Virus record (IMG/VR): IMGVR_UViG_3300020186_000084
Coordinates: 1-25,002 of that record
Length of the DNA: 25,002 nucleotides
Direction: 5' to 3' (one strand)
Source of the DNA: a virus
Part shown: positions 1 to 24,667 of the stretch, one piece after another
How the letters are laid out: each line of letters opens with the position of its first letter
Position numbering within the stretch: the stretch's first letter is position 1
Program-made: the position numbers and the translations under genes
The notes under the pieces: generated by a model
Told to the model about the DNA's origin: nothing
Database searches by the model: none
The model's input: the letters and a program-made list of their open reading frames with translations, nothing else

Positions 1-22
1 GAATAGAGGGAATTAAATAATG
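1..22 (+). repeat. Junction repeat A, copy 1 (stop, ribosome site, start)
   Basis: The bases include GAATAG, then AGAGGGAATTAAATAATG. They look like the end of an upstream copy (Glu-stop) followed by a ribosome binding site (AGAGGGA) and the start codon at 20. Copies 2 and 3 are at 122-142 and 253-274. The implied upstream Gly-rich unit would lie outside the window. Confidence 0.6.
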
Positions 23-127
23 AAATATATCGATGGTAGCGGTGATGGTGACGGTAGCGGTTATGGCATCGGCGACGGTAACGGTATCGGTAGCGGTTAC
101 GGCAACGGTGACGGCGTTTGTGAGTAG
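20..127 (+). CDS. Gly-X-Gly-X mini-protein (35 aa), function unknown
   Basis: This short gene starts MKYIDGSG and continues as a nearly perfect alternation of Gly with Ser, Asp, Tyr, Ile or Asn, ending Val-Cys-Glu-stop. It has no hydrophobic segment and no known fold that I recognise. A ribosome site (AGAGGGA) lies about 8 nt before the ATG. The next gene (start 140) begins with the same module, MEYIDGSG, and the two 5' flanks are nearly identical, so the pair is a tandem duplication. The bases before position 7 look like the end of a further copy. The DNA is a run of degenerate GGN-NNC hexamers, so it could expand or contract by slippage. I do not assign a function. The shared start module and intact frame argue for translation, but it could be decaying repeat DNA. 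Confidence 0.6.
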   Translation: MKYIDGSGDGDGSGYGIGDGNGIGSGYGNGDGVCE

Positions 128-142
128 AGGATTTAAATAATG
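122..142 (+). repeat. Junction repeat A, copy 2
   Basis: GAGTAGAGGATTTAAATAATG matches copy 1 except for two substitutions and a one-base deletion. It contains the stop codon of the 35-aa mini-gene (125-127), the AGAGG ribosome site and the start codon at 140. Similarity continues downstream through the MEYIDGSG-coding bases. Confidence 0.7.
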
Positions 143-703
143 GAATACATCGACGGAAGCGGCGGCGGTGAAGGTGGCGGTAGCGGTTACGGTAGCGGTT
201 ACGGTAGCGGTTACGGTTACGGTTACGGTATCGGTAGCGGCGGCAATGGCATGAATAAAGAGGGAAATAAAATGCAATATTTTAGAGATGGTTTAACGCA
301 AGAAATTGATACACAAGTAAAAGTTAAAACTACACGTGAAGGGCACACGGTTGAAGAATATTTGGTTGATGGAGTAAAAAAATACTTTGTGACTTTAGCG
401 GGTTCACATTATTGCGCGCACGGCTCAAGCGTAGGCGAAGCGATTTCAGACGCAATCTGGAAAGACGAATCCAAACGACCAACATTAAATGATCTTAAAA
501 AAGAAATTTTAGCTGCTGGTTCAGAGCGAAAAATAACTCTTGCAGAGTTCAGAGTGTTAACGGGCGCATGTTTAGAGGGTTGTCGCATTGCTCTTACGCG
601 GGCTGGGTTAAGCGGCGAACCAATGCTGCCCAAAGAAATCATGAATCATTTCCCAGAATGGGGCACAGCCCTTTATAAAGTTTTGGAAGCGAAGGAGGAA
701 TAA
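140..703 (+). CDS. Gly-rich N-terminus fused to a hypothetical phage protein (187 aa; internal start at 272)
   Basis: Residues 1-37 are a Gly-Ser/Gly-Tyr repeat beginning MEYIDGSG, paralogous to the mini-gene just upstream. Residues 45-187 are an ordinary mixed-composition domain I do not recognise, with a Lys-rich helix-like stretch around 115-130 and a LTGACLEG motif. A second start (ATG at 272, Met45) is preceded by AGAGGGAAATAA, a third copy of the junction module. So the cell may make the full protein, the 143-residue form alone, or both. The layout suggests a Gly-rich mini-gene that lost its stop codon and fused to the next gene. The C-terminus is LEAKEE, written by junction repeat B. 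It overlaps the next gene by 1 nt (TAATG). Function unknown. Confidence 0.75.
   Translation: MEYIDGSGGGEGGGSGYGSGYGSGYGYGYGIGSGGNGMNKEGNKMQYFRDGLTQEIDTQVKVKTTREGHTVEEYLVDGVKKYFVTLAGSHYCAHGSSVGEAISDAIWKDESKRPTLNDLKKEILAAGSERKITLAEFRVLTGACLEGCRIALTRAGLSGEPMLPKEIMNHFPEWGTALYKVLEAKEE
179..214 (+). repeat. Three tandem copies of a 12-bp repeat inside the Gly-rich coding region
   Basis: GGTAGCGGTTAC occurs three times without interruption, followed by GGTTAC, GGTTAC, GGTATC and GGTAGC hexamers up to 238. Each unit encodes Gly-Ser-Gly-Tyr, so unit gain or loss keeps the reading frame. Confidence 0.9.
253..274 (+). repeat. Junction repeat A, copy 3 (stop codon lost)
   Basis: GAATAAAGAGGGAAATAAAATG resembles copies 1 and 2, but AATAG has become AATAAAG, which removes the in-frame stop. 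The AGAGGGA ribosome site and an ATG (272) remain, at a spacing of about 7 nt. Confidence 0.55.
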
Positions 704-705
704 TG
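686..705 (+). repeat. Junction repeat B, copy 1
   Basis: GAAGCGAAGGAGGAATAATG: encodes Glu-Ala-Lys-Glu-Glu-stop for the upstream gene, carries AAGGAGG, and supplies the start codon of the next gene at 703. Confidence 0.9.
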
Positions 706-981
706 AAAATTATAGGCGAAGGACCTGGACACAAAATCGTAACAATGACCACGGGGGAATTATCCAACTTGATCGGATATTACTATGTGGGTGACGGGAA
801 TTGTCCCCCACTGAAAGTGGGTGACGAGATTTTTATATCAAGCATCTACATGAAGCTGTACAAAATCCAACACAACAAAAAAACTACCGATAACGCTGTG
901 AGAGAACTTCGGGAAATGGCTGACTCTCTCGAATTACTCTCACCTATCTTGCAGGTGACAGAAGCGAAGGAGGAATTATGA
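703..981 (+). CDS. Hypothetical protein (92 aa)
   Basis: I do not recognise this soluble protein. It begins MKIIGEGPGHKIVTM, which looks like beta strands, has a KVGDEIF stretch near residues 38-45 typical of a small barrel-like fold, and ends in a helical acidic part (residues 60-92). The start is fixed by AAGGAGG seven bases upstream, inside junction repeat B. The stop overlaps the next start as ATGA, so translation is probably coupled. The C-terminus is TEAKEEL, again dictated by the repeat. It belongs to a plus-strand operon of small accessory genes; a role in host takeover or DNA metabolism is possible but not shown by the sequence. Confidence 0.8.
   Translation: MKIIGEGPGHKIVTMTTGELSNLIGYYYVGDGNCPPLKVGDEIFISSIYMKLYKIQHNKKTTDNAVRELREMADSLELLSPILQVTEAKEEL
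961..980 (+). repeat. Junction repeat B, copy 2
   Basis: GAAGCGAAGGAGGAATTATG: differs from copy 1 by one base (TAATG to TTATG). That change moves the upstream stop to TGA (979-981) and adds one Leu to the EAKEE tail. Confidence 0.9.
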
Positions 982-1292
982 GCTTTAGATATGATGTTTT
1001 AAATTTAAACGCGCTAATAGCTGAACCAATATTAAAAACCGAAGAAAACTATGCAAAGGTACATTCTATGAAACAAGAAATGTTATCAAAAATACTCTCA
1101 GGGCAAATTACAACCCTTACTGTAGACGACGCAGAGTTTACAATCTCGGGCGAAAAATCCCAGACTTGTGTTTCTTTACTGGAAAGATACCAACATGTTT
1201 TAGTGGTGGCTAGAATGGTGAACTCTGCCAGACCGGACGTTAGAATGATTCATGCGCTTCGAGCGTTTGATGAGGCGCGGGAACAAATATAA
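978..1292 (+). CDS. Hypothetical protein (104 aa)
   Basis: This unrecognised soluble protein is predicted mostly helical. A central segment (about residues 35-58) contains Thr-rich strand-like sequence, TTLTVDDAEFTISG. It starts at the ATG in junction repeat B and overlaps the previous stop by 4 nt. It ends EAREQI-TAA, so it lacks the EAKEE tail: its stop lies just before the next junction repeat, 16 nt ahead of the next start. No membrane segment, no cysteine cluster and no enzymatic motif are visible. Small early-type phage protein by context only. Confidence 0.8.
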   Translation: MSFRYDVLNLNALIAEPILKTEENYAKVHSMKQEMLSKILSGQITTLTVDDAEFTISGEKSQTCVSLLERYQHVLVVARMVNSARPDVRMIHALRAFDEAREQI

Positions 1293-1311
1293 GCGCGAAG
1301 GGGGAGTGATG
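1292..1311 (+). repeat. Junction repeat B, copy 3 (diverged 5' part)
   Basis: AGCGCGAAGGGGGAGTGATG. The 3' part (GCGAAGGGGGAGTGATG) matches the other copies. It keeps the TGATG stop-start overlap even though the upstream gene already ended at 1290-1292, so the TGA here is not the upstream gene's stop. Confidence 0.75.
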
Positions 1312-1590
1312 GAACCAGACAAATTACCTAATATCAAGTGGATCAAAAACGAGGGGTTTACATCCTTTACTGACGGAAGCGTTTTTATTGTCGCGCTTAG
1401 GGTTGAGGACGATAAGACAAAAACCCTAAATTGGGATTTCGATGTTGTTGAATTTGATTGCGACGGTGAAGGCGCATCACTTTACTATCGAGGAAAATTC
1501 GAATCATACACCGACTGGGATTGGGATGACTTCGAGTATTTTGCTTTGCTTAGTGGAGACATGCCGAGCAAAGAAGCGAAGGAGGAGTGA
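1309..1590 (+). CDS. Hypothetical acidic protein (93 aa)
   Basis: This unrecognised, strongly acidic protein is rich in Asp and aromatic residues, with TDWDWDDFEYF near the C-terminus (about residues 66-78). The start at 1309 is chosen over an in-frame ATG at 1252, because GAAGGGGGAG of junction repeat B lies directly before 1309 and the 1252 start would overlap the previous gene by 41 nt. The acidic, aromatic make-up recalls DNA-mimic or inhibitor proteins that phages make, but this is only a compositional hint. It ends SKEAKEE, the junction-repeat tail, and overlaps the next gene by one base (TGATG). Confidence 0.75.
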   Translation: MEPDKLPNIKWIKNEGFTSFTDGSVFIVALRVEDDKTKTLNWDFDVVEFDCDGEGASLYYRGKFESYTDWDWDDFEYFALLSGDMPSKEAKEE

Positions 1591-1592
1591 TG
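1573..1592 (+). repeat. Junction repeat B, copy 4
   Basis: GAAGCGAAGGAGGAGTGATG: same as copy 1 except for AATAATG to AGTGATG. It gives EAKEE-stop upstream and the ATG at 1590. Confidence 0.9.
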
Positions 1593-1820
1593 AATATTCA
1601 AATTCACGCGAACGAAGTTGGAGAAATGTTAGTTGATGAAACGCACGTCGTTCAGGCATGTTTTTTAAATGCGTTTTTTGAAAAAATACTGAGAGAGTAC
1701 AAAGGCGGCTACAGTGGGTGGTGTAAGGATATGCATCACTTTGCTGGTTCACACATGATTTTAGCAATGGCTGATATTTTAAAAGTAGGAAACCCTGCGA
1801 CAGAAGCGAAGGGGGAGTGA
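1590..1820 (+). CDS. Hypothetical protein (76 aa)
   Basis: This unrecognised small protein has a helical N-terminal half and a central Cys/His-containing patch (GWCKDMHHFAGSH, about residues 43-55). Two histidines and a cysteine there could bind metal, but the set is incomplete for a known zinc motif. The ATG at 1590 is preferred over a GTG at 1587, because it follows the same TGATG overlap and AAGGAGG spacing as its neighbours. It ends TEAKGE, a variant of the tail caused by a GGA to GGG change in the next repeat. Function unknown. Confidence 0.75.
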   Translation: MNIQIHANEVGEMLVDETHVVQACFLNAFFEKILREYKGGYSGWCKDMHHFAGSHMILAMADILKVGNPATEAKGE

Positions 1821-1822
1821 TG
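1803..1822 (+). repeat. Junction repeat B, copy 5
   Basis: GAAGCGAAGGGGGAGTGATG: one base different from copy 4. It encodes EAKGE-stop and supplies the start at 1820. Confidence 0.9.
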
Positions 1823-2038
1823 AAAGTTTTAATTAAATACATTGATTTCCATTGGGACAATCACCAGGGAGGTAGCGGCAGGACCGTAGAATCTAGTTAT
1901 AAGGTGGATGTTCCTGACGACATAAGATCCGATAGCATTTATGAATACTTGCATCAGCGTTTATTGACCTATATCGAATCCCGAAGGCCGTTTAAGCAAC
2001 AGGATAAGCATACAGTTGTTTCAATGGAGCTGCTATGA
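1820..2038 (+). CDS. Hypothetical protein (72 aa)
   Basis: This unrecognised protein begins with a strand-like MKVLIKYIDF and carries a helical middle (SDSIYEYLHQRLLTYIESRR, about residues 38-57). The start at 1820 uses the junction repeat's GAAGGGGGAG. It is the last gene in the chain preceded by junction repeat B. Its own end lacks the tail: it ends SMELL and overlaps the next start by 4 nt (ATGA). The small size and coupling are typical of phage accessory operons. Confidence 0.75.
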   Translation: MKVLIKYIDFHWDNHQGGSGRTVESSYKVDVPDDIRSDSIYEYLHQRLLTYIESRRPFKQQDKHTVVSMELL

Positions 2039-2172
2039 CCGAAGACAAGACTAAGGCAGAGTTATGCGTAATCATTGTCGATTTAACCAGGGAGCGCGAT
2101 TACTACAAAAGCATAATAGATGCGGCCGCCAAAGTGTTAGCTTTTGAAGACCCAAAATCTCAAGACGACTAA
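2035..2172 (+). CDS. Small hypothetical protein (45 aa)
   Basis: The gene begins MTEDKTKAELCVIIVDLTRE and ends DPKSQDD; it looks like one or two amphipathic helices and is acidic at the end. The start overlaps the previous stop as ATGA, and GGAG lies 5 nt upstream of the ATG. It closes the plus-strand operon. Its TAA (2170-2172) shares two bases with the TAG of the convergent minus-strand gene. Composition resembles short phage proteins with an N-terminal helix such as those binding other proteins, but no function is assignable. Confidence 0.65.
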   Translation: MTEDKTKAELCVIIVDLTRERDYYKSIIDAAAKVLAFEDPKSQDD

Positions 2173-2321
2173 GCTTTCGCTTCAACGTTGAAATCCGCGA
2201 TAATGTTTTCGTGCTTTTCCGTTATTTTAACGACTGATTCCTCGAAATCGCAATAATATTTCATAGCGCTTTCTGTCCAGCTAACGACTTCCTCGTCTGT
2301 CATCGACATTTCGACAAGCAC
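2169..2321 (-). CDS. Small hypothetical protein (about 50 aa)
   Basis: The reading frame is open well upstream (to 2393), but the best ribosome site is GGAGG at 2327-2331. It is five bases before a GTG at 2321 (an ATG at 2324 is too close, and one at 2309 is rather far). The product is acidic and helical (MTDEEVVSW, then a MKYYCDFEESVV stretch) and unrecognised. It ends VEAKA, coded by GAAGCGAA, the same eight bases that open junction repeat B on the other strand; this may be chance or a relic. It is the only minus-strand gene to the left of 2958 and is convergent with the operon ending at 2172. Real but not certain. Confidence 0.45.
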   Translation of the reverse strand: MLVEMSMTDEEVVSWTESAMKYYCDFEESVVKITEKHENIIADFNVEAKA

Positions 2322-2334
2322 CATGACCTCCATT

Positions 2335-2365
2335 TTGATAGCCCGATAAATCCCCATGTTAAGAT
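2335..2365 (+). promoter_or_regulatory. Candidate promoter for the HNH gene
   Basis: TTGATA (2335-2340) is one base from the -35 consensus. TAAGAT (2360-2365) is a modest -10 at a long 19-nt spacing. Transcription would begin close to the ATG at 2375, which has no Shine-Dalgarno site, so the message might be leaderless. Weak evidence: based on motif match only. Confidence 0.25.
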
Positions 2366-2374
2366 AGTACCAAA

Positions 2375-2644
2375 ATGCCCAAATATTGCTCACCCGACGT
2401 TCAATGTATTGTTACAGGCCAGATGGGTGCGGACTTGCACCACGTGAAAAGCCGTGGTGCGGGAGGCGGCGACGATTCTTGGAACCTCATTCCAGTTTGC
2501 CATCGCATTCACCAAGAAATTCACTCAAAAGGCATTTGCGCTTTGGCTAAACAACATGCTGCCATCCTTAATTGGCTGCTTAGTAACGGGTGGGAATTGG
2601 AAACAGGCCGCGAGAGATGGGTGCGCGTATTGCGTCAACATTAA
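2375..2644 (+). CDS. HNH-type nuclease-like protein (89 aa)
   Basis: The core GADLHHVKSRGAGGGDDSW followed by NLIPVC and HRIHQEIH matches the HNH/treble-clef layout: His22-His23 on the first strand, Asn37 in the NLIP turn, and His46 with His50 on the helix. Cys11 and Cys42 may help hold a zinc ion. HNH domains cut or nick DNA with one metal ion; phages use them as homing enzymes, packaging cofactors or recombination nucleases. At 89 residues it is a stand-alone domain. It has no good ribosome site and may be read from a leaderless message. It sits alone between small genes and far from the terminase genes in this window, so a packaging role is not supported by position. Confidence 0.75.
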   Translation: MPKYCSPDVQCIVTGQMGADLHHVKSRGAGGGDDSWNLIPVCHRIHQEIHSKGICALAKQHAAILNWLLSNGWELETGRERWVRVLRQH

Positions 2645-2707
2645 ACTTTGGGTATGTTGTCAAAATAATGGCTTTTAAAAAAAGCTGATAGGAAGGAGAC
2701 ATACAAA

Positions 2708-2767
2708 ATGGCTAAATCTACAAAAAAACCAGCACCTAAAAAGGCTGCAAAAAAAGGTAAGAAGTAA
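2708..2767 (+). CDS. Lys/Ala/Pro-rich basic micropeptide (19 aa)
   Basis: The product is MAKSTKKPAPKKAAKKGKK: ten lysines in 19 residues, resembling the PAKK tails of bacterial histone-H1-like proteins. A strong AAGGAG ribosome site (2693-2699) at 8-9 nt spacing argues for efficient translation, and a hairpin terminator follows seven bases after the stop, so this looks like the last gene of a short unit. A nucleic-acid-binding or charge-neutralising role is inferred only from composition. The alternative is that the short frame is fortuitous, but the ribosome site, codon phase and terminator fit together well. Confidence 0.6.
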   Translation: MAKSTKKPAPKKAAKKGKK

Positions 2768-2773
2768 ATATTT

Positions 2774-2820
2774 GGTCCGTTCAAGGGATCTGAACCCAAC
2801 TTTTCTTGACGGGCCTTTTT
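2774..2820 (+). terminator. Rho-independent terminator after the basic micropeptide gene
   Basis: GGTCCGTTCAAG (2774-2785) pairs with CTTGACGGGCC (2805-2815) through 11 pairs, with one bulged T and one G-U pair, and TTTTT follows at 2816-2820. A shorter alternative hairpin (GTTCA 2779-2783 with TGAAC 2791-2795) competes with it. It works only in the plus direction; no T run follows on the minus strand. Confidence 0.75.
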
Positions 2821-2841
2821 AAAATGTTAACGGGGAAGAAA

Positions 2842-2961
2842 ATGAAAAAAGCTATCAGTAATTCTTTAGTTTACTTGCTATGTGGTGCAGTTCTTGTATC
2901 TCTTTTGATGGTATGCGCTCACCTGTTTTTGTCGCTCGTCGAACAGCTTAAAATTATCTAG
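2842..2961 (+). CDS. Small single-pass membrane peptide (39 aa)
   Basis: The product starts MKKAISNSLVYLLCGAVLVS: a short positive end, then one hydrophobic segment of about 25 residues (about 7-32), then a short tail ending LKII. A GGGGAAG ribosome site lies just before the ATG. It is downstream of the hairpin terminator and convergent with the lysis genes, whose last stop shares the same CTAG (2958-2961). Because of size and location it could be a small holin, antiholin or lysis modifier, but nothing in the sequence identifies it. Confidence 0.55.
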   Translation: MKKAISNSLVYLLCGAVLVSLLMVCAHLFLSLVEQLKII

Positions 2962-3248
2962 CGCGATCTTTTTTTGACTTCATCTTTTACGCGCTTAAGT
3001 TCACTCTCTAATGCTTTCACGTACGATATATGTTTTGCGTCTTCGTCAGGACGTCTGCAAGTAGCGCCTTCAAGGTCGGTTAAAGGCCTTTCAATTTGAG
3101 GTTGGTTTTGCACAGCAGATGCTGGCGAGCAAAGAACCAACGTTTCACCGATTACCCACAAAGTACAAATCTCCTCGCGAGGGTGCTTAGGGATAGAAAC
3201 ACAGCTAGTCAGAAGGGCCGTTAAGGCGAGCATTTTCAATAGCTGCAT
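2958..3248 (-). CDS. Putative outer-membrane lipoprotein spanin (Rz1-like), 96 aa
   Basis: A signal peptide ends in the lipobox LLTSC (Cys16). Val follows the cysteine, which by the usual +2 rule sends lipoproteins to the outer membrane. The rest is soluble, contains two further cysteines in the middle, and ends in a charged coiled-coil-like helix (about residues 74-96). The gene starts inside the 3' end of the upstream gene in another frame (44-nt overlap), with AAGGA at 8 nt. That overlapping architecture, after an endolysin gene, is characteristic of phage Rz/Rz1 spanin pairs, which fuse the two membranes in the last step of lysis. The assignment rests on layout and lipobox; the protein is longer and less proline-rich than lambda Rz1. 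Confidence 0.65.
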   Translation of the reverse strand: MQLLKMLALTALLTSCVSIPKHPREEICTLWVIGETLVLCSPASAVQNQPQIERPLTDLEGATCRRPDEDAKHISYVKALESELKRVKDEVKKRSR

Positions 3249-3665: not shown

Positions 3666-4154
3666 TTATTTTACAGCTGCTTTTATCAAAGCGAAAGCAG
3701 CTGAAGATCCCTGAGACAAAACTACTGGTTTTAACTCTGCCCACGTCAAACCTATTTTAAGTTCGTTGTGCGGCTTATCCACCATTTTCCAAGTTGCACC
3801 ACACACTAAGCCAATTTGTTGACACCCGTTAATGTAATCCACCCAAAACTCATGGTCCCATCTAGCTTTTCCGTCGGGATAGAATTTCGTCCAATCTGAA
3901 GCGCACCCATAATTATGTGGTGATTCCCAACCCTGCGCCTGTGTTTTTCTTCGTGCTTTGTGATCCCTGGTGCGTCCAATAGCATATAAAAAATCTTGCT
4001 CATTAGCGGATCGGATTCCACAATAGGGAGCCCAAAAGGAACCGTCTTCATATTTTATTTCTGCAAGGTACTCGCAAAGCGCTTCATATTTTGGCACGTA
4101 CAGACCATTGAGATTCACTTTAAAACGGTCAAATCGTTCAGCTTGATTCATCAT
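3666..4154 (-). CDS. Endolysin: M15-type zinc peptidase (162 aa)
   Basis: The motif SPHNYGCASD (residues 78-87) and the later WKMVDKPHNEL (122-132) match the zinc site of the VanY / L-Ala-D-Glu peptidase (M15) family: His80, Asp87 and His129 as ligands and Asp126 as the likely catalytic acid. M15 phage lysins such as T5 endolysin cut stem-peptide bonds in peptidoglycan. The length fits a single catalytic domain with no separate wall-binding part and no signal peptide, so release needs a holin. Its start overlaps the upstream membrane-protein gene by 4 nt (ATGA), and a small unknown and the spanin-like pair follow. Confidence 0.85.
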   Translation of the reverse strand: MMNQAERFDRFKVNLNGLYVPKYEALCEYLAEIKYEDGSFWAPYCGIRSANEQDFLYAIGRTRDHKARRKTQAQGWESPHNYGCASDWTKFYPDGKARWDHEFWVDYINGCQQIGLVCGATWKMVDKPHNELKIGLTWAELKPVVLSQGSSAAFALIKAAVK

Positions 4155-11405: not shown

Positions 11406-13376
11406 TTATGCTATCCTGAAATTTCTGTTATTAAGTTGAAAAATGGCGTTAGCTAATTCACTCTCGCCAACTTGAACTGTTACGTTAACCATTTGTGATG
11501 ATCCCTGACTGCCAGCTAGGAATGATCTAAGATCGTTTGATAACGTCCTATCGATTACTTCCTCGCCTGGTGTGAGTTTCGCAGAAATACGATCCGAATA
11601 AGGAGCACCGCCGGGTACAGTTCCGCCATCAGCAAAGAATAACTCACTTAAGCCGCCTGTTAGAATACCGGCACCGATACGGGCAGCTGTTCCGCCAGCG
11701 CCTCCGCCAGCAGCATCACTGATTTTGCTTCCACCACCATTGAAGGGGTTAACGGCGTCAATAATCGCTTGGGCCATTCTTGGCGCTTCAGCTATTAAAG
11801 CTTGCACGAAACTGATGGCGATTTGCGGCATTTGCGACACTAGGTTTGTCATGAATTGAGGAGCAAGCCTTATCAACTCAGTAATCAGTTTAGGAGCGGC
11901 TTTTGCTAGCTCGTCTGTGATCACTGGAATTGCTTTGATTATATTTTCGATTACAGCAGGTAACGCCTGAGCAAAACCTTGAACCATAGTTCGCACATGC
12001 TCTGGGCCCTTAGCTAGCTCGGTTACAATCTCACTGACAGGACCAGCGAATTGAGGGCCGAACATAGCCCCTGCTGCGGCACCAGCGGCACCAGCAACTA
12101 ACTGTGCTGCTCCAGACGGGCCTTTAAGAACCGCTGAGAAAATGCCGACAATGTCACCAGCTAGTTGTTGCTGAACTTGTGTGAGATTTATTTTTCTAAC
12201 TTCAATTTCAAGTTTTGCGGCTATGCCTGCGCCAGGACTTTTAACTGCATCGGCAAAAAACTTGCCTGATTTTAAATTCTTTTCAAACTCTTCGCGTACC
12301 TTTTCAGCGTCTTTGCGCAATTCTTCTAAGGCTTTTGAATTGTCTTCAATGGCCTTGCTGTTGTTGCCAAAACCTTTTGATTCCTTATCGAGTCCTGCAA
12401 TAGATCTAGCCTGAGTGTCTATAAGTTTTTCCCTAAAAACAGTTATGGAAGCAATGCTGTTTTCAAGGTTATCAAGGTCTTTTGTTGTTTGTTTTACGCC
12501 TTGAGAATCACCGAGAGCCCTTGCGAGGGCGTGAGCGGCTAGAACCGCACCGTACACAACTTTCTGAAAAAGCAAGAAACCTTCGACGGCTAATAGCATG
12601 CTGCCATTAACAAAATCACGTAAAACGCTGCCGTTTTTAATTACAATTATCGCAAATTCTTTGAACAGTTGGCCTACAATGCTTATTCCTGCGATAACCG
12701 CTTTATTTTGAACAATGTAATTACCTAATGTTTCTAAAAGGTCAGAGAATGCATTTTTAGTGCGCGTAAGGCTACCCTCAAAAGTTTGTCCGGCAGCCGT
12801 TGACGCCCCTTTAAACCTTTCCTCAATAAACCTTAACGCCGCTCCACCTTTGAAAGCTTCCTCTGAAAGCCCTCTAAGTTGGGGAATGTTTCTTGATATG
12901 GCACCGCCAGCACCTTGAAGTGATTTTGCCAATAACTCCGTTGCCGAGGAGAGATCAATACCTAAAACCGAAGCCAAATCAGCAGCGGCAGGAACCAATC
13001 TTTTTGTTTCATCATTTGAGACGCCTAAGGATTTTGCAAGCGCAATGGCGCTTAAGGCTGCTTCATCGGAGAATTTTGAAGTGTCTTGAATTGAACCGGC
13101 TAAACTTTCGAAATCCCTTTGCGATTGGTCAGAGAAATCACCGGCTAGCTTTAAAGAAACAACCATTCCGTTCAGTGCTTCTTGCGCAGCGGAAGCCTCA
13201 TCAATAATCTTATTGAATGTAACCACACCAACGATTGCCGCTGCCGCCACCTTTAATAATGAGAAAGCATTTTCAACAGATTTTACAGATTTGGAAGCGT
13301 CTTTAGAAAAACTATCAATACTTTTTGCAGCGGAGGAAACATCGGCTTTAAGAATCATGTCGACAATTGAAGCCAT
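11406..13376 (-). CDS. Tail tape measure protein (656 aa)
   Basis: It has the usual tape measure profile: helical, Ala/Ser/Lys-rich N-terminus, hydrophobic segments near residues 40-56 and about 225-275, a charged coiled-coil stretch around 335-370, then Ala/Gly-rich and amphipathic repeats (PAVIENIIKAIP, APKLITELIRLAPQ) and a small C-terminal domain. GGAGG sits 9 nt before the ATG. It is preceded by the frameshifted chaperone genes, as in lambda-type tails. With about 1.5 angstrom per residue, a tail of roughly 100 nm would be expected, which is inference. No muramidase or peptidase motif is visible. Confidence 0.9.
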   Translation of the reverse strand: MASIVDMILKADVSSAAKSIDSFSKDASKSVKSVENAFSLLKVAAAAIVGVVTFNKIIDEASAAQEALNGMVVSLKLAGDFSDQSQRDFESLAGSIQDTSKFSDEAALSAIALAKSLGVSNDETKRLVPAAADLASVLGIDLSSATELLAKSLQGAGGAISRNIPQLRGLSEEAFKGGAALRFIEERFKGASTAAGQTFEGSLTRTKNAFSDLLETLGNYIVQNKAVIAGISIVGQLFKEFAIIVIKNGSVLRDFVNGSMLLAVEGFLLFQKVVYGAVLAAHALARALGDSQGVKQTTKDLDNLENSIASITVFREKLIDTQARSIAGLDKESKGFGNNSKAIEDNSKALEELRKDAEKVREEFEKNLKSGKFFADAVKSPGAGIAAKLEIEVRKINLTQVQQQLAGDIVGIFSAVLKGPSGAAQLVAGAAGAAAGAMFGPQFAGPVSEIVTELAKGPEHVRTMVQGFAQALPAVIENIIKAIPVITDELAKAAPKLITELIRLAPQFMTNLVSQMPQIAISFVQALIAEAPRMAQAIIDAVNPFNGGGSKISDAAGGGAGGTAARIGAGILTGGLSELFFADGGTVPGGAPYSDRISAKLTPGEEVIDRTLSNDLRSFLAGSQGSSQMVNVTVQVGESELANAIFQLNNRNFRIA

Positions 13377-14005: not shown

Positions 14006-15526
14006 TTACAAAAAGTTTACGTATACTTCGCCAAGACCATCAGCTTCCATGAAAGCTGTAAGAGTTGCTTGAATGGTTACAATCCCGTCACTGTCGGTGA
14101 GTTGGAACGATGAGATTTTACATTGCGGCATGCAGATGTTTACACAACGACCAGCTACCCAGTTGCCACCGGATTTCACTCCGCCATTGTAGGAAAATTG
14201 TGTCGTGTCGCCTGCGCTAAACTTACGAAAAGCGTCTGCATCGTGCTGAGCTAAAGTTAAAGTTAGTTCAGCAGTAACAACACGTTTAGTAATTAATTTC
14301 TCGCCGACGCCTGATTCTGCGCAAATGTCGGGCACGTTTTGAAGTTCTTTTGAGATGTTAAACGAAAAGCTTTGAGCGCCTGCGCATGCGAAACGATCGA
14401 ATTGACCGAACAACACTTCGTTATATTTAACAACGATTGGACTTGTGTTTGCATCAACTGTAGCTGAATAAGGAGAAGCCCAGCTTTGAACGGTATCACT
14501 GGTGTAGGTGAGTGCAGCGGATAAGTCGGTAGCAGCAAAACCAATCTGACTCCAAATCCCGTTAGCAACGTTTGTACCTGTCGATGCAAGAATTGAGAAC
14601 GTGCCAGAAGCTTTTGTGAAAGTGAACTTGCCAGCATTTGCGCCTGTGTCGTTGTATACAACAGTGAAACCAGAACTTGCCGCGTTCATTGCAGTTTGAA
14701 TGGCTGATGCTAGGTCATGCGGACTCTTATAAAGTTTCACAGTAACGGTTGCAACCTTTACGCCGCCGTCGTTAAAATCGATATAAGCATCAGCAGAATT
14801 CACTCGAATAGGGTTGAAATAATAACCAACACCTTCGAAATTGAATGATGCGTTTAACGGTTGGCCAGCTTCCGCCTCAATAGACATTTCACTGACCTGT
14901 GCTCCCGTAACAACTTCCTTTGCCGCTTCATTTGCTCGAAAAGACCAAAGAGAAAGGGCAGCTGGCGCATCAGCCGGTTTATAAAGAATCGGACGACCTG
15001 TTAGCATGCCGGTAGCAGGGGCAGCGGTAAGATTGTGCAGAAGCGTTAATGTGTTTGTAGAAATCGATAGAACGTTACGGATGTTGTAACCATTCGTTGA
15101 ATCTTTAATAAGAACAGCGTGACCGCGCTCAAAGCTTGTACCGCCAGATGCTAAAATAACCGTAGCCCTTGCAGCAGAGCTTCCGGCAGTTGAGCCGGTC
15201 GTAGTTGTTTTCTCAGAGAATGCAGCGGTTTTTCCACCAAGAACGTTTTTCAAAAGAGCGTCGTAGTTAGGCGCAGTCGCTTCAGTTCCCGAGTGTCTGA
15301 TGTAGTGAGACAGAGAAGCTGAAGGCGCTTCGATACCAAGGATTGGAGCGCGTGAACCAATGTTTGGCGACAGTTCGTTATTGTCGATTGTCTCAAATGA
15401 TGGTGAGACTTCAAAGCCATCCTGAACAGCAATGATGTCGGCACCAGAAGCCAAATCGATTGGCGTCCCGTTTGTAGATTCTTCTTTGACACCGAATAGC
15501 GATTTTCTAGTTGTGTAAGCTGGCAT
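14006..15526 (-). CDS. Major tail (tube) protein with inserted module (506 aa)
   Basis: Located just before the chaperones and starting after AAAGGAG, this is the expected place of the tail tube subunit. The N-terminus (KSLFGVKEES) and the strand-rich segments around 200-240 and 360-506 (for example FSFNISKELQNVPDI) fit a tube fold. Two insertions make it unusually large: a Ser/Thr/Ala-rich part (about 100-185) and a module at about 241-347 ending TYTSDTVQS that is also in the distal tail-type protein. Such inserts usually project outward from the tube. Structural assignment is by order and fold style, not by a catalytic motif. Confidence 0.8.
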   Translation of the reverse strand: MPAYTTRKSLFGVKEESTNGTPIDLASGADIIAVQDGFEVSPSFETIDNNELSPNIGSRAPILGIEAPSASLSHYIRHSGTEATAPNYDALLKNVLGGKTAAFSEKTTTTGSTAGSSAARATVILASGGTSFERGHAVLIKDSTNGYNIRNVLSISTNTLTLLHNLTAAPATGMLTGRPILYKPADAPAALSLWSFRANEAAKEVVTGAQVSEMSIEAEAGQPLNASFNFEGVGYYFNPIRVNSADAYIDFNDGGVKVATVTVKLYKSPHDLASAIQTAMNAASSGFTVVYNDTGANAGKFTFTKASGTFSILASTGTNVANGIWSQIGFAATDLSAALTYTSDTVQSWASPYSATVDANTSPIVVKYNEVLFGQFDRFACAGAQSFSFNISKELQNVPDICAESGVGEKLITKRVVTAELTLTLAQHDADAFRKFSAGDTTQFSYNGGVKSGGNWVAGRCVNICMPQCKISSFQLTDSDGIVTIQATLTAFMEADGLGEVYVNFL

Positions 15527-19267: not shown

Positions 19268-20140
19268 CTAGACTCCGATTCCACTTGAAGCAGCAGTTGC
19301 CCAAATGTGTTTCTTAGATCCGTCTACGCCTAATTTTGCGCCCAACAAGAAATCAACAGAGATGACATATCCAAATTGTTTGTTTGAGTGCAAATCAGAA
19401 ATCTTGAAACGTGGCTGAGATTGCATAACAAGGTACATGAAATCAGGGTGGAAGAACAAACCTTTGTCGGCACCGCGTGAATCATCTTCAAGAATGTTGA
19501 AACCCATTCGTTGTTGCGAAATCTGTCCACCGATAACTGGCTTGTCATCTACGTAATCAGCAGAGGTGAGAGTTGTCGAATTCAACACGTCAGCGTAGTA
19601 GCTAGGATCTACCAAACCGTACCAGCCTTTTTCTCTCGCCCATTTTGCTTGTGCAGCAAGTAAACGAATAGCAGACACTTGTGCAGCGTCCATTGCTGAG
19701 ATGCTGTTTAGCAAATGATCAGGAGAAGATGTGGAAGGACTAACAAGGCTATAAAGATAGTTGTTAAGCTTTTTCATTGCGCCGAACATTAGAGCGTCAC
19801 GAATAACTGACTCTTTGCTTTCAAGTTGGGTGAGAACAGAAGCAGTTTCTTGCAATTCAAAAGAGTGCACGATGCGTTTGTTTACAACGACGGCAACTTC
19901 TTGAAATGCCATTTGTGTGCTTTCAAAAACGTCAGCGTCCGTGCCAACAGTTCTAATTTGACCTTCAGAGTCAACAAGCTGGGATACTGTAACTTGGTCG
20001 CCTTCCTTCTTGATGTCGCCTGTGTACTCTTTATTAACAAGAGACGCTAAAAGCATTTTCTCGCGAAGAGCGGGCATGAATTGCGGTGCCCAGAATTTTT
20101 GAATTTGCTCGGTTAGAAGATTGATATCGGTTACTGACAT
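19268..20140 (-). CDS. Major capsid protein (290 aa)
   Basis: Located after the scaffold gene and before the small capsid-associated genes, with an excellent GGAGGAATCACCAAA site. The sequence shows a helical N-terminal arm (TEQIQKFWAPQFMPALREKM), strand-rich middle (GDQVTVSQLVDSEGQIRTVG), a spine-like helix (AISAMDAAQVSAIRLLAAQAK) and a capsid-style FFHPDFMYLVMQ stretch, in the manner of P22-like/HK97-fold coat proteins. The size is ordinary. There is no cleavage motif that I can point to, and a separate scaffold gene exists, so proteolytic maturation is not evident. Confidence 0.85.
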   Translation of the reverse strand: MSVTDINLLTEQIQKFWAPQFMPALREKMLLASLVNKEYTGDIKKEGDQVTVSQLVDSEGQIRTVGTDADVFESTQMAFQEVAVVVNKRIVHSFELQETASVLTQLESKESVIRDALMFGAMKKLNNYLYSLVSPSTSSPDHLLNSISAMDAAQVSAIRLLAAQAKWAREKGWYGLVDPSYYADVLNSTTLTSADYVDDKPVIGGQISQQRMGFNILEDDSRGADKGLFFHPDFMYLVMQSQPRFKISDLHSNKQFGYVISVDFLLGAKLGVDGSKKHIWATAASSGIGV

Positions 20141-23284: not shown

Positions 23285-24667
23285 TTACTCTCTCATTTGA
23301 GTTCGTTGTCTAGTGTTCATTATGCTGATTTGATGAATCCAATATGTGACGGCAGTTGTTACGTGTTGAAATGAATCGGAGTCATCTTCTAAGTATTGCC
23401 CGCCTTTTTTTAATTTCGTAAGCCTTAAGCCTTCGTCAACTACTTGCGCATCACTGTAGCAGAAGAAATTGGTAGCGCCAGCTTCGTTGAGAAAATGTGC
23501 ATTGGCTAGGTTATGTCTTTTTCTGACAGCAGGATTGTCTCTCGGTACATGCTTTTCTACTTCGAGAGATGATCCGTCGGATCTTTTATAGTTCTGAAGA
23601 AACTTCATAATGATATCGTAATCAGAATGAATTGATCGGGTGTCTCTTCGTGCTCCCGTCGAGTCGCCGAATACTCTAAACGTTGTTCTGTTCTCGAATA
23701 AATTAGCGGCAGCCATTTCTTCTAGGATGTCCAAAGTTCTAGCCCCAGCAACTACGAAATCTTTAGCAACGTGAAACTGATTGGCAATAACCTGTCCGGC
23801 ACAGGCAGACATTGGCTTCCCATTTCCGATGTTAAAGTCGAACGCGATGTCGATAGGGTTTAAATCATTCCATTCATATTTATAATCACGGTAGCAACGA
23901 TCAGACGTGTAGGCGTAATAGACGACTTCCTCATTAATTTCTGTCCACTCTCCATAAAGCAATCGTTTAGCCATCTTTGGATCAATGGTGTCCTTTAAGC
24001 CTTGTATGTATTCTTTAGGTAAGAAAGGATTGTCCTCAGTCTTTGAGTAATAAACGTGTCTGTTTCTATGTTTTTTGCTGATGAAATGTTTATACACGGG
24101 GTGGCGCGGAGAGTCCGGGTTAGTCGCCATCATGATCCACTTTTCCGGTACGTGTTGCAATCTTCCTACGCGCGCGTATAGCTCATCATAAAAGCCCCAG
24201 TGCTCAGCGTCCGATTCGGTACCTTCCTCGATAGCCGCTGCTGATAGTTCTAATGATCTAAACTTTTTAAAGTCTTTGTCATACCAGGAACGGGAGGCAA
24301 TCTCAGAACCGTTTCTAAAATAAAAACGATTGGCAGCCTTGTTGTGTCTGTAGTCTTTTCCCTCAACGAGGGTGCCGCGCATGTGCTCTAATATTTTTTG
24401 CAACAGAGTTTCTTTTAAGTCCTGCATTTTTAGACGACCTGCCAGCACGCGAGAGTGATGAAATAGAAGGCAGTGGGATAGGACCATGTGGGCAACTAAA
24501 ATTGACTTAGCCGATCCGACAGAGCCAGACAGTAAAATCTCTTGAGTACCCTGAGTGTAATCAAAACGTTTTCTGATGTCGTACAGCACACGATATTGCA
24601 TCGGGATGAGTTTAGGATCGAACTCAGAAAAGTTTGGAGTTGACGTTGATAACAGAGGCGAGTTCAT
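23285..24667 (-). CDS. terL: Terminase large subunit (460 aa)
   Basis: ATPase part: Walker A GSVGSAKS (48-55), acidic Walker B-like AAAIEEG (143-149), and the coupling motif ATNPDS (181-186). Nuclease part: first Asp in DIAFDFNIG (273-277), VFGDSTG (332-338, Asp335), and a late acidic pair in LEDDSDSF (426-433), the RNase H-like metal site. The enzyme translocates and cuts genome DNA at the portal. It overlaps the small subunit gene by 4 nt (ATGA). The length and motif spacing are normal, so it is likely active. The packaging strategy (headful or cos) cannot be read here. Confidence 0.92.
   Translation of the reverse strand: MNSPLLSTSTPNFSEFDPKLIPMQYRVLYDIRKRFDYTQGTQEILLSGSVGSAKSILVAHMVLSHCLLFHHSRVLAGRLKMQDLKETLLQKILEHMRGTLVEGKDYRHNKAANRFYFRNGSEIASRSWYDKDFKKFRSLELSAAAIEEGTESDAEHWGFYDELYARVGRLQHVPEKWIMMATNPDSPRHPVYKHFISKKHRNRHVYYSKTEDNPFLPKEYIQGLKDTIDPKMAKRLLYGEWTEINEEVVYYAYTSDRCYRDYKYEWNDLNPIDIAFDFNIGNGKPMSACAGQVIANQFHVAKDFVVAGARTLDILEEMAAANLFENRTTFRVFGDSTGARRDTRSIHSDYDIIMKFLQNYKRSDGSSLEVEKHVPRDNPAVRKRHNLANAHFLNEAGATNFFCYSDAQVVDEGLRLTKLKKGGQYLEDDSDSFQHVTTAVTYWIHQISIMNTRQRTQMRE

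Follow-up and report, generated by a model that had tools for sequence, protein, structure and literature searches.

How do several unrelated small proteins of one phage come to end in the same few residues? The question arises from a viral record of 25,002 bases, a contig fragment from an uncultured tailed phage; the whole record was analyzed and is referred to here as the window. Its late genes lie on the minus strand and encode a terminase (23285-24667), a capsid-like protein (19268-20140), a tail tube (14006-15526), and a tape measure (11406-13376), with which we list a weakly matching M15-type endopeptidase on the same strand (3666-4154). The plus-strand small genes span positions 1 to 2172 and converge with the late genes. 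Among them, genes A to F are linked through five junctions, J1 to J5, at which an earlier note, made from the sequence alone, had recognized a repeated cassette of stop codon, ribosome site, and start codon. The cassette was proposed to serve as a recombination point for the swapping of small genes, as a strong initiation site, or as a functional C-terminal tag.

Anatomy of the five junctions

All five copies lie on the plus strand at the positions that had been given for them. J1 (686-705, GAAGCGAAGGAGGAATAATG) contains the last codons of gene A (140-703), a gene with a Gly-rich N-terminal part and a conserved domain from about position 272; these codons read EAKEE and are followed by TAA at 701-703 and by the ATG of gene B at 703, so that stop and start overlap as TAATG. 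Gene B (703-981, 92 amino acids) ends TEAKEEL, and J2 (961-980, GAAGCGAAGGAGGAATTATG) combines this end with TGA at 979-981 and the ATG of gene C at 978 in an ATGA overlap. Gene C (978-1292, 104 amino acids) stops before J3 (1292-1311, AGCGCGAAGGGGGAGTGATG), which provides the ribosome site and the ATG at 1309 of gene D and is the only junction described here as non-overlapping, with a 16-base gap after the gene C stop. Gene D (1309-1590, 93 amino acids from ATG 1309) ends KEAKEE within J4 (1573-1592, GAAGCGAAGGAGGAGTGATG), where TGA at 1588-1590 and the start of gene E at 1590 overlap as TGATG. The same overlap is found in J5 (1803-1822, GAAGCGAAGGGGGAGTGATG), which joins the end of gene E (1590-1820, 76 amino acids from ATG 1590, ending TEAKGE) through TGA at 1818-1820 to the start of gene F at 1820. 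Gene F (1820-2038, 72 amino acids from ATG 1820), the start of which is thus supplied by J5, is itself tail-less and ends SMELL, and gene G likewise lacks an EAKEE-type tail. The tails EAKEE, EAKEEL, EAKEE, and EAKGE previously read from genes A, B, D, and E, respectively, were thereby confirmed.

The 20-base pattern GAAGCGAAGGRGGARTDATG occurs at 686, 961, 1573, and 1803. Compared with GAAGCGAAGGAGGAATAATG, the copies at 686, 961, 1573, 1803, and 1292 carry 0, 1, 2, 3, and 6 mismatches, respectively, and similarity is highest between neighboring copies (J1 with J2; J3 and J5 have 17 bases in common). Every one of the five copies finishes in the start codon of the next gene, with AAGGRGG 4 bases before the ATG, and all of them are confined to 1.1 kb. 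The GAAGCG prefix is unchanged in four copies, while three variable sites fall within the functional part. The earlier statement that the cassette is kept at 1292 despite the upstream stop applies to the final 17 bases of J3, which are the same as those of J5, but not to the prefix. Wherever the prefix is translated, at four junctions, it is intact, and only the untranslated one, at J3, has changed. A derivation of J3 by a GAA-to-TAA change together with a 2-base insertion was considered and is possible, yet unproven.

Two further endings, which the earlier note had missed, resemble the tail. Gene C ends DEAREQI, the last codons and the stop being GAGGCGCGGGAACAAATATAA (1272-1292, plus strand); this end does not double as the ribosome site of gene D, as its stop precedes J3. 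At the protein level it resembles EAKEEL followed by a stop, each codon difference being synonymous or conservative, although the bases differ. Only 3 of 3,063 unselected open reading frame (ORF) ends are as tail-like as EAREQI (top 0.1% in likeness to EAKEE(L)), but the comparison of gene C with EAKEEL was chosen after the data had been seen, and we therefore treat it as a lead only. On the opposite strand, the gene at 2169-2393 ends VEAKA; its terminal stretch (2169-2183, minus strand, GAAGCGAAAGCTTAG, EAKA and stop) shares GAAGCGAA, and no start follows it. Its score is a common one, reached by 6% of ORF ends.

The bodies of the proteins had been called unrelated, and our comparison agrees. 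After the tails had been removed (gene C was kept whole), bodies A to G were aligned locally in 21 pairs against 300 shuffles per pair, and shared ancestry was not found; the best pair, A-C, reached a p of ~0.013, which is not significant after correction. Searches of PHROGs, Pfam, and annotated phages yielded no relatives of B to F, IMG/VR contained none of gene B, and among the early proteins compared with annotated phages, B to G gave no match and only gene A matched, weakly, in two Riemerella phages.

The repeat extends beyond the ribosome site

Dinucleotide-preserving shuffles gave expectations of 0.01 for the 20-mer (up to 3 mismatches allowed) and 0.06 for the 14-base core (up to 1 mismatch allowed), against 4 and 5 occurrences found, respectively. 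Much of the resemblance follows from the arrangement of the site. AAGGRGGA placed four bases before an overlapping stop/start always reads AAG GRG GAR. With the ribosome site read in frame, K-(E/G)-E is mechanical, and the part that calls for an explanation is reduced to six bases, GAAGCG. The fairer null takes the ribosome sites as constrained and asks about GAAGCG alone. In frame, GAAGCG accounts for 12 of the 7,357 codon pairs of the record, the copies included, and at this frequency its occurrence at four of five junctions has a probability of ~4e-11. Of 58 strong ribosome sites in phage DNA that was either related or unselected, none had GAAGCG in front, the baselines being drawn from unselected contigs only, as the IMG/VR loci chosen by motif constitute a biased control. 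The suspicion that all phage ribosome sites might share the same 20 bases is thereby set aside, and a chance origin is rejected on the shuffles, the 58 strong sites, and the codon-pair figure. Within the record, no other ribosome site carries the prefix, and the cassette is absent before the late genes. The Ala codon of the prefix, GCG, is the rarest in the record (76 of 494 Ala codons, 15%) and is nevertheless present in every copy, which points to copied DNA rather than to convergence on a peptide.

The junctions revealed no consistent RNA structure (fold z-scores from -0.7 to 1.2), and promoter- and terminator-like matches within positions 1-3000 were not above shuffles.

The ending of gene A differs from that of its homologues

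Homologues of gene A, 54 to 59% identical, were found in three phage contigs (L354, L355, and L356). The sequences align as far as the cassette-free part extends and diverge after it: the record continues as FPEWGTALYKVL-EAKEE, L354 as FPEWGEKLLNIL-GWR, L355 as FPEWGNRLLEIL-EWK, and L356 as KEWGDKLLSIL-GWL. As the homologues end in GWR, EWK, and GWL, the EAKEE tail is not the family ending. Judged from these alignments, the ending of the gene A family is of the (G/E)W(R/K/L) type, which EAKEE has replaced in this phage. The explanation that the proteins are paralogs sharing a family-specific ending, named in the earlier note as a refuting outcome, was rejected on these endings and on the lack of any related pair of bodies.

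None of the three contigs contains the cassette, and the gene that follows A differs in all four phages. At J1, homology stops with the last residues of gene A, at the cassette, and the next gene differs; a change of gene content at the junctions is what the earlier note had suggested looking for. However, turnover after gene A is equally strong in the three phages that lack a cassette, and a causal role of the cassette in swapping is therefore not demonstrated.

Searches for the cassette in other phages

Capsid and terminase alignments brought in ~140 related loci; no bacterial genomes with a related terminase or capsid were found. The earlier note had suggested following the cassette through the rest of the genome and into relatives. 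The record holds no further prefix-bearing ribosome site, and the array was present in 0 of 42 contigs that share head genes and were searched whole. One of them, G003, carries one 20-mer that matches the 1292 variant base for base; it lies at a gene end encoding KSAKGE. In IMG/VR, the exact 20-mer pattern occurred in six contigs (five independent), once per contig and always at gene junctions with the tail EAKEE or EAKGE. Single-site convergence therefore happens, but the array does not. When positions 1-2700 were searched against phages at the nucleotide level, only the Gly-rich repeats hit among the matches listed. We also scanned ~2.4 Mb for 13-base ribosome-site sequences common to unrelated genes, using mycobacteriophage TM4 as the positive control. 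The scan recovered 10 copies of the Start-Associated Sequences (SAS) in TM4 and 5 copies here, and nothing else had five copies.

Parallels to the array, all weaker than that of the record, were seen in three contigs. In the unrelated contig L049, AAGGRGAGACGCCATGA stands at three junctions and places GETP on three proteins; in L069, also unrelated, TGTCGGGCAAAAACGAAGGAGGATA stands at two junctions, accompanied by two diverged ones, and the proteins have RAKTKED-like ends. The third contig, L356, shares gene A and contains GGCTGGGAAGAGGTAAAGTCATGA twice, with WEEVKS on two paralogous Gly-rich genes. Here the preceding gene is duplicated together with the junction, which shows junction copying directly. 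Five unrelated proteins with a common ending were found in none of the other contigs examined.

Proposed origin of the shared tail

We consider it reasonably probable that the cassette is a translational-coupling junction which was copied several times within the small-gene operon of one phage lineage and that the tail is mainly a by-product. In its TAATG (J1), TGATG (J4 and J5), and ATGA (J2) overlaps and in the position of AAGGRGG 4 bases before the start, the cassette resembles known coupling junctions. It differs from them in the non-overlapping J3 and in its six additional common bases upstream, which ordinary coupling junctions of one genome do not have. By this anatomy, the cassette would work like a coupled ribosome site, with each copy acting as a strong site, of the ordinary kind, for ribosome binding or restart. 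The overlapping ATG would serve as the start of the downstream gene either for ribosomes coming off the upstream gene or for new ones binding at AAGGRGG, and the chain of small genes is probably translation-coupled. The strong initiation site proposed earlier is supported by the spacing and the overlaps but explains only the 14-base core. As for the tail, the Shine-Dalgarno site lies in the upstream frame at a fixed distance from the overlapping stop and is necessarily translated as K-(E/G)-E, and the extra EA would stem from GAAGCG, six bases carried along whenever the junction was copied. The tail would then probably have no function of its own.

The copies probably arose at gene ends, through tandem duplication or short-homology recombination, in a part of the genome where small genes turn over rapidly. 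Adjoining the array, two tandem Gly-rich units (9-234 on the plus strand, the units being 9-114 and 129-234) are 75% identical, ribosome site included, and represent a visible tandem duplication. The unrelated bodies between the copies may be due to replacement between junctions, to the capture of new genes next to a junction that had been copied, or to full divergence. Several observations weigh against a copied junction. Plain duplication followed by divergence is insufficient, given that bodies B to F are unrelated, and replacement or full divergence is required. The invariant prefix next to a variable functional part fits constraint as well as it fits recent copying. Two features point to the protein level: the single copy with a changed prefix, J3, is the one in which the prefix is untranslated, and gene C nonetheless has the ending EAREQI. 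A close relative displaying the copying step itself was not found.

Repeated regulatory punctuation between small genes has a counterpart in the PeSL, which are said, with reference to Arbiol in 2010 and Comeau in 2014, to be mobile regulatory cassettes of T4-type phages built as promoter/terminator stem-loop units. These have reportedly been proposed to mediate the shuffling of small genes. They differ from the cassette in having a promoter and a terminator stem-loop, as neither promoter, terminator, nor stem was found here.

By the copied-junction reading, unrelated proteins can acquire the same peptide when a translation signal lying across coding sequence is copied, and common C-termini of phage small proteins should be checked at the DNA level before homology or a tag is called. 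The GETP, RAKTKED, and WEEVKS parallels suggest that the copying of coupling junctions is recurrent in small-gene operons, where it would provide a countable signature of the addition and replacement of small phage genes.

Alternative explanations

One alternative, which we regard as unlikely, is that EA(K/R)(E/G)(E/Q) is a functional C-terminal tag that sets stability or a common interaction and that the ribosome site merely overlaps. It draws on gene C, which has EAREQI at an end that is not a ribosome site and ranks in the top 0.1% of the 3,063 ORF ends, on the opposite-strand gene, which reaches VEAKA through GAAGCGAAA with no start following, and on the singularity of five unrelated proteins with a common ending among the contigs examined. 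The gene C tail, together with a prefix that was changed only where it is not translated, favors a role at the protein level and keeps the tag reading alive. These points are countered by the use of the rarest Ala codon in each copy, by the variation of the tail itself (an E-to-G change gives EAKGE, another tail is longer by one Leu, and there is no tail on genes F and G), and by the gene A homologues, which lack it. Moreover, VEAKA is ordinary by its score, and EAREQ can also be an ordinary helix end. The tag suggested by the earlier note thus gains weakly from genes C and 2169-2393 and loses on the codon and on the uneven tails. Its more specific form, a protein-level tag on the consecutive proteins A to E that overlaps the next gene's ribosome site in the same 20 bases, seems quite improbable to us. 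Gene C would then be the exception in which tag (EAREQI) and ribosome site come apart, and the 20 bases, if the tail is selected, would form a dual-use module of tag and start site.

It is also improbable that all 20 bases, prefix included, are under selection as a binding site through which translation of these genes is set jointly, in the manner of the SAS. These 13-base elements of Cluster K mycobacteriophages (GGGATAGGAGCCC) have an SAS-like counterpart in Cluster EF Microbacterium phages (GGGAAAGGACCCC) (PMC3203893, PMC7302621), and what the SAS themselves do has yet to be established (PMC11373665, PMC12699233). Like the SAS, the cassette is a short asymmetric repeat at the ribosome site, in one orientation and a few bases before starts, and the same 13-base scan recovers both. 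Its conservation goes past any stretch that pairs with 16S rRNA, by six bases on the upstream side (here, the prefix in 4 of 5 copies), and its sites are found only at starts and only at unrelated non-structural genes, as in TM4. The element here, GAAGCGAAGGRGGARTDATG, departs from the SAS consensus, however. SAS are mostly found in gaps of >50 bp and are scattered over half the genome; here, four overlaps and one 16-base gap are clustered in 1.1 kb, and the copies overlap coding sequence and write a protein tail. SAS are also kept across related phages, in contrast to the array, which was found in 0 of 42 head-gene and 0 of 3 gene-A contigs, none of them close relatives. The prefix-less J3 and the lack of consistent RNA structure speak against such an element as well. 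The cassette thus resembles a local version of SAS but is not filed as SAS, from which it differs in sequence, in the absence of large gaps, and in conservation among relatives.

A recombination point kept for small-gene swapping, at which homologous recombination between short identical junctions would trade entire genes without damage to stop or start, is very doubtful. The change of gene content after A in four phages and the end of homology at the junction are what it would predict, and short direct repeats at gene ends recombine in mycobacteriophages, as described for Cluster I phages and LRRHood (PMC3029335) and for Corndog gene 14 (PMC4351075). Both there and here, a short repeat adjoins differences in gene content. 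However, those repeats measure 17 to 50 bp and flank an identified insertion or deletion, and no insertion or deletion between cassettes was seen here. The three cassette-free relatives turn over at the same place, and a cassette flanking swapped genes was not found in any relative. Furthermore, 20 bases are short for general recombination, and selection for the ability to swap is unnecessary. The recombination point suggested by the earlier note is partly supported, by the coincidence at J1.

Independent convergence of the strong ribosome sites of coupled genes on the same bases, already disfavored, is hardly credible: KEE is frame-forced, five unrelated phages carry the 20-mer singly with EAKEE or EAKGE, and G003 repeats J3, but the 0 of 58 strong sites elsewhere, the ~4e-11 for four of five junctions, and the restriction of all copies to one 1.1-kb stretch count against it. 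The 14-base sequence GAAGCGAAGGAGGA is scattered in IMG/VR, mostly within genes, and occurs at most once per stretch.

Junction sequences in related and unrelated phages

The phage from which the window derives belongs to a large uncultured group comprising about 140 IMG/VR loci (L131-L274), represented in the window by the capsid gene at 19268-20140 and the terminase gene at 23285-24667. The capsid of this group had no match among 50,697 annotated phage records, and bacterial genomes likewise yielded none with the scan used. Within G003, a contig that has head genes in common with the window, a single 20-mer (positions 25246-25265; L283 / L350) was the same as the cassette variant at 1292, AGCGCGAAGGGGGAGTGATG, and translates as KSAKGE. 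This match may be a coincidence or a relic.

Repeated junctions were found in unrelated phage contigs. Locus L049 (contig G046) carries three minus-strand copies of AAGGRGAGACGCCATGA, at G046 positions 24496, 24756 and 23303, that give three proteins the tail GETP. In L069 (3235-4760), two junctions between genes carry TGTCGGGCAAAAACGAAGGAGGATA and the following two carry divergent forms of it, the encoded ends being RAKTKED, EAKEED and AKVKEN.

Similar tails and neighboring genes in the window

Gene C ends in EAREQI (1272-1292), which resembles EAKEEL at the protein level but is written with different bases, although this end does not serve as ribosome site for the gene that follows. On the minus strand, the gene at 2169-2393 converges on gene G, the two stop codons overlapping, and ends in VEAKA, written by GAAGCGAAAGCTTAG (2169-2183).

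Glycine-rich tandem genes with a GSG/GYG repeat adjoin the gene A domain or are fused to it (window 9-234; contigs L354, L355 and L356), and in these three relatives a MIGKKVIVRANVAGVHAGI-type gene lies upstream in this neighborhood. The neighborhood recurs in phages without a detected related capsid or terminase, and its arrangement varies among phages, the glycine-rich gene being separate, fused or placed after gene A.

Directly downstream of the HNH-like gene at 2375-2644, a strong ribosome site precedes a very lysine-rich ORF of 19 residues, MAKSTKKPAPKKAAKKGKK (2709-2767).
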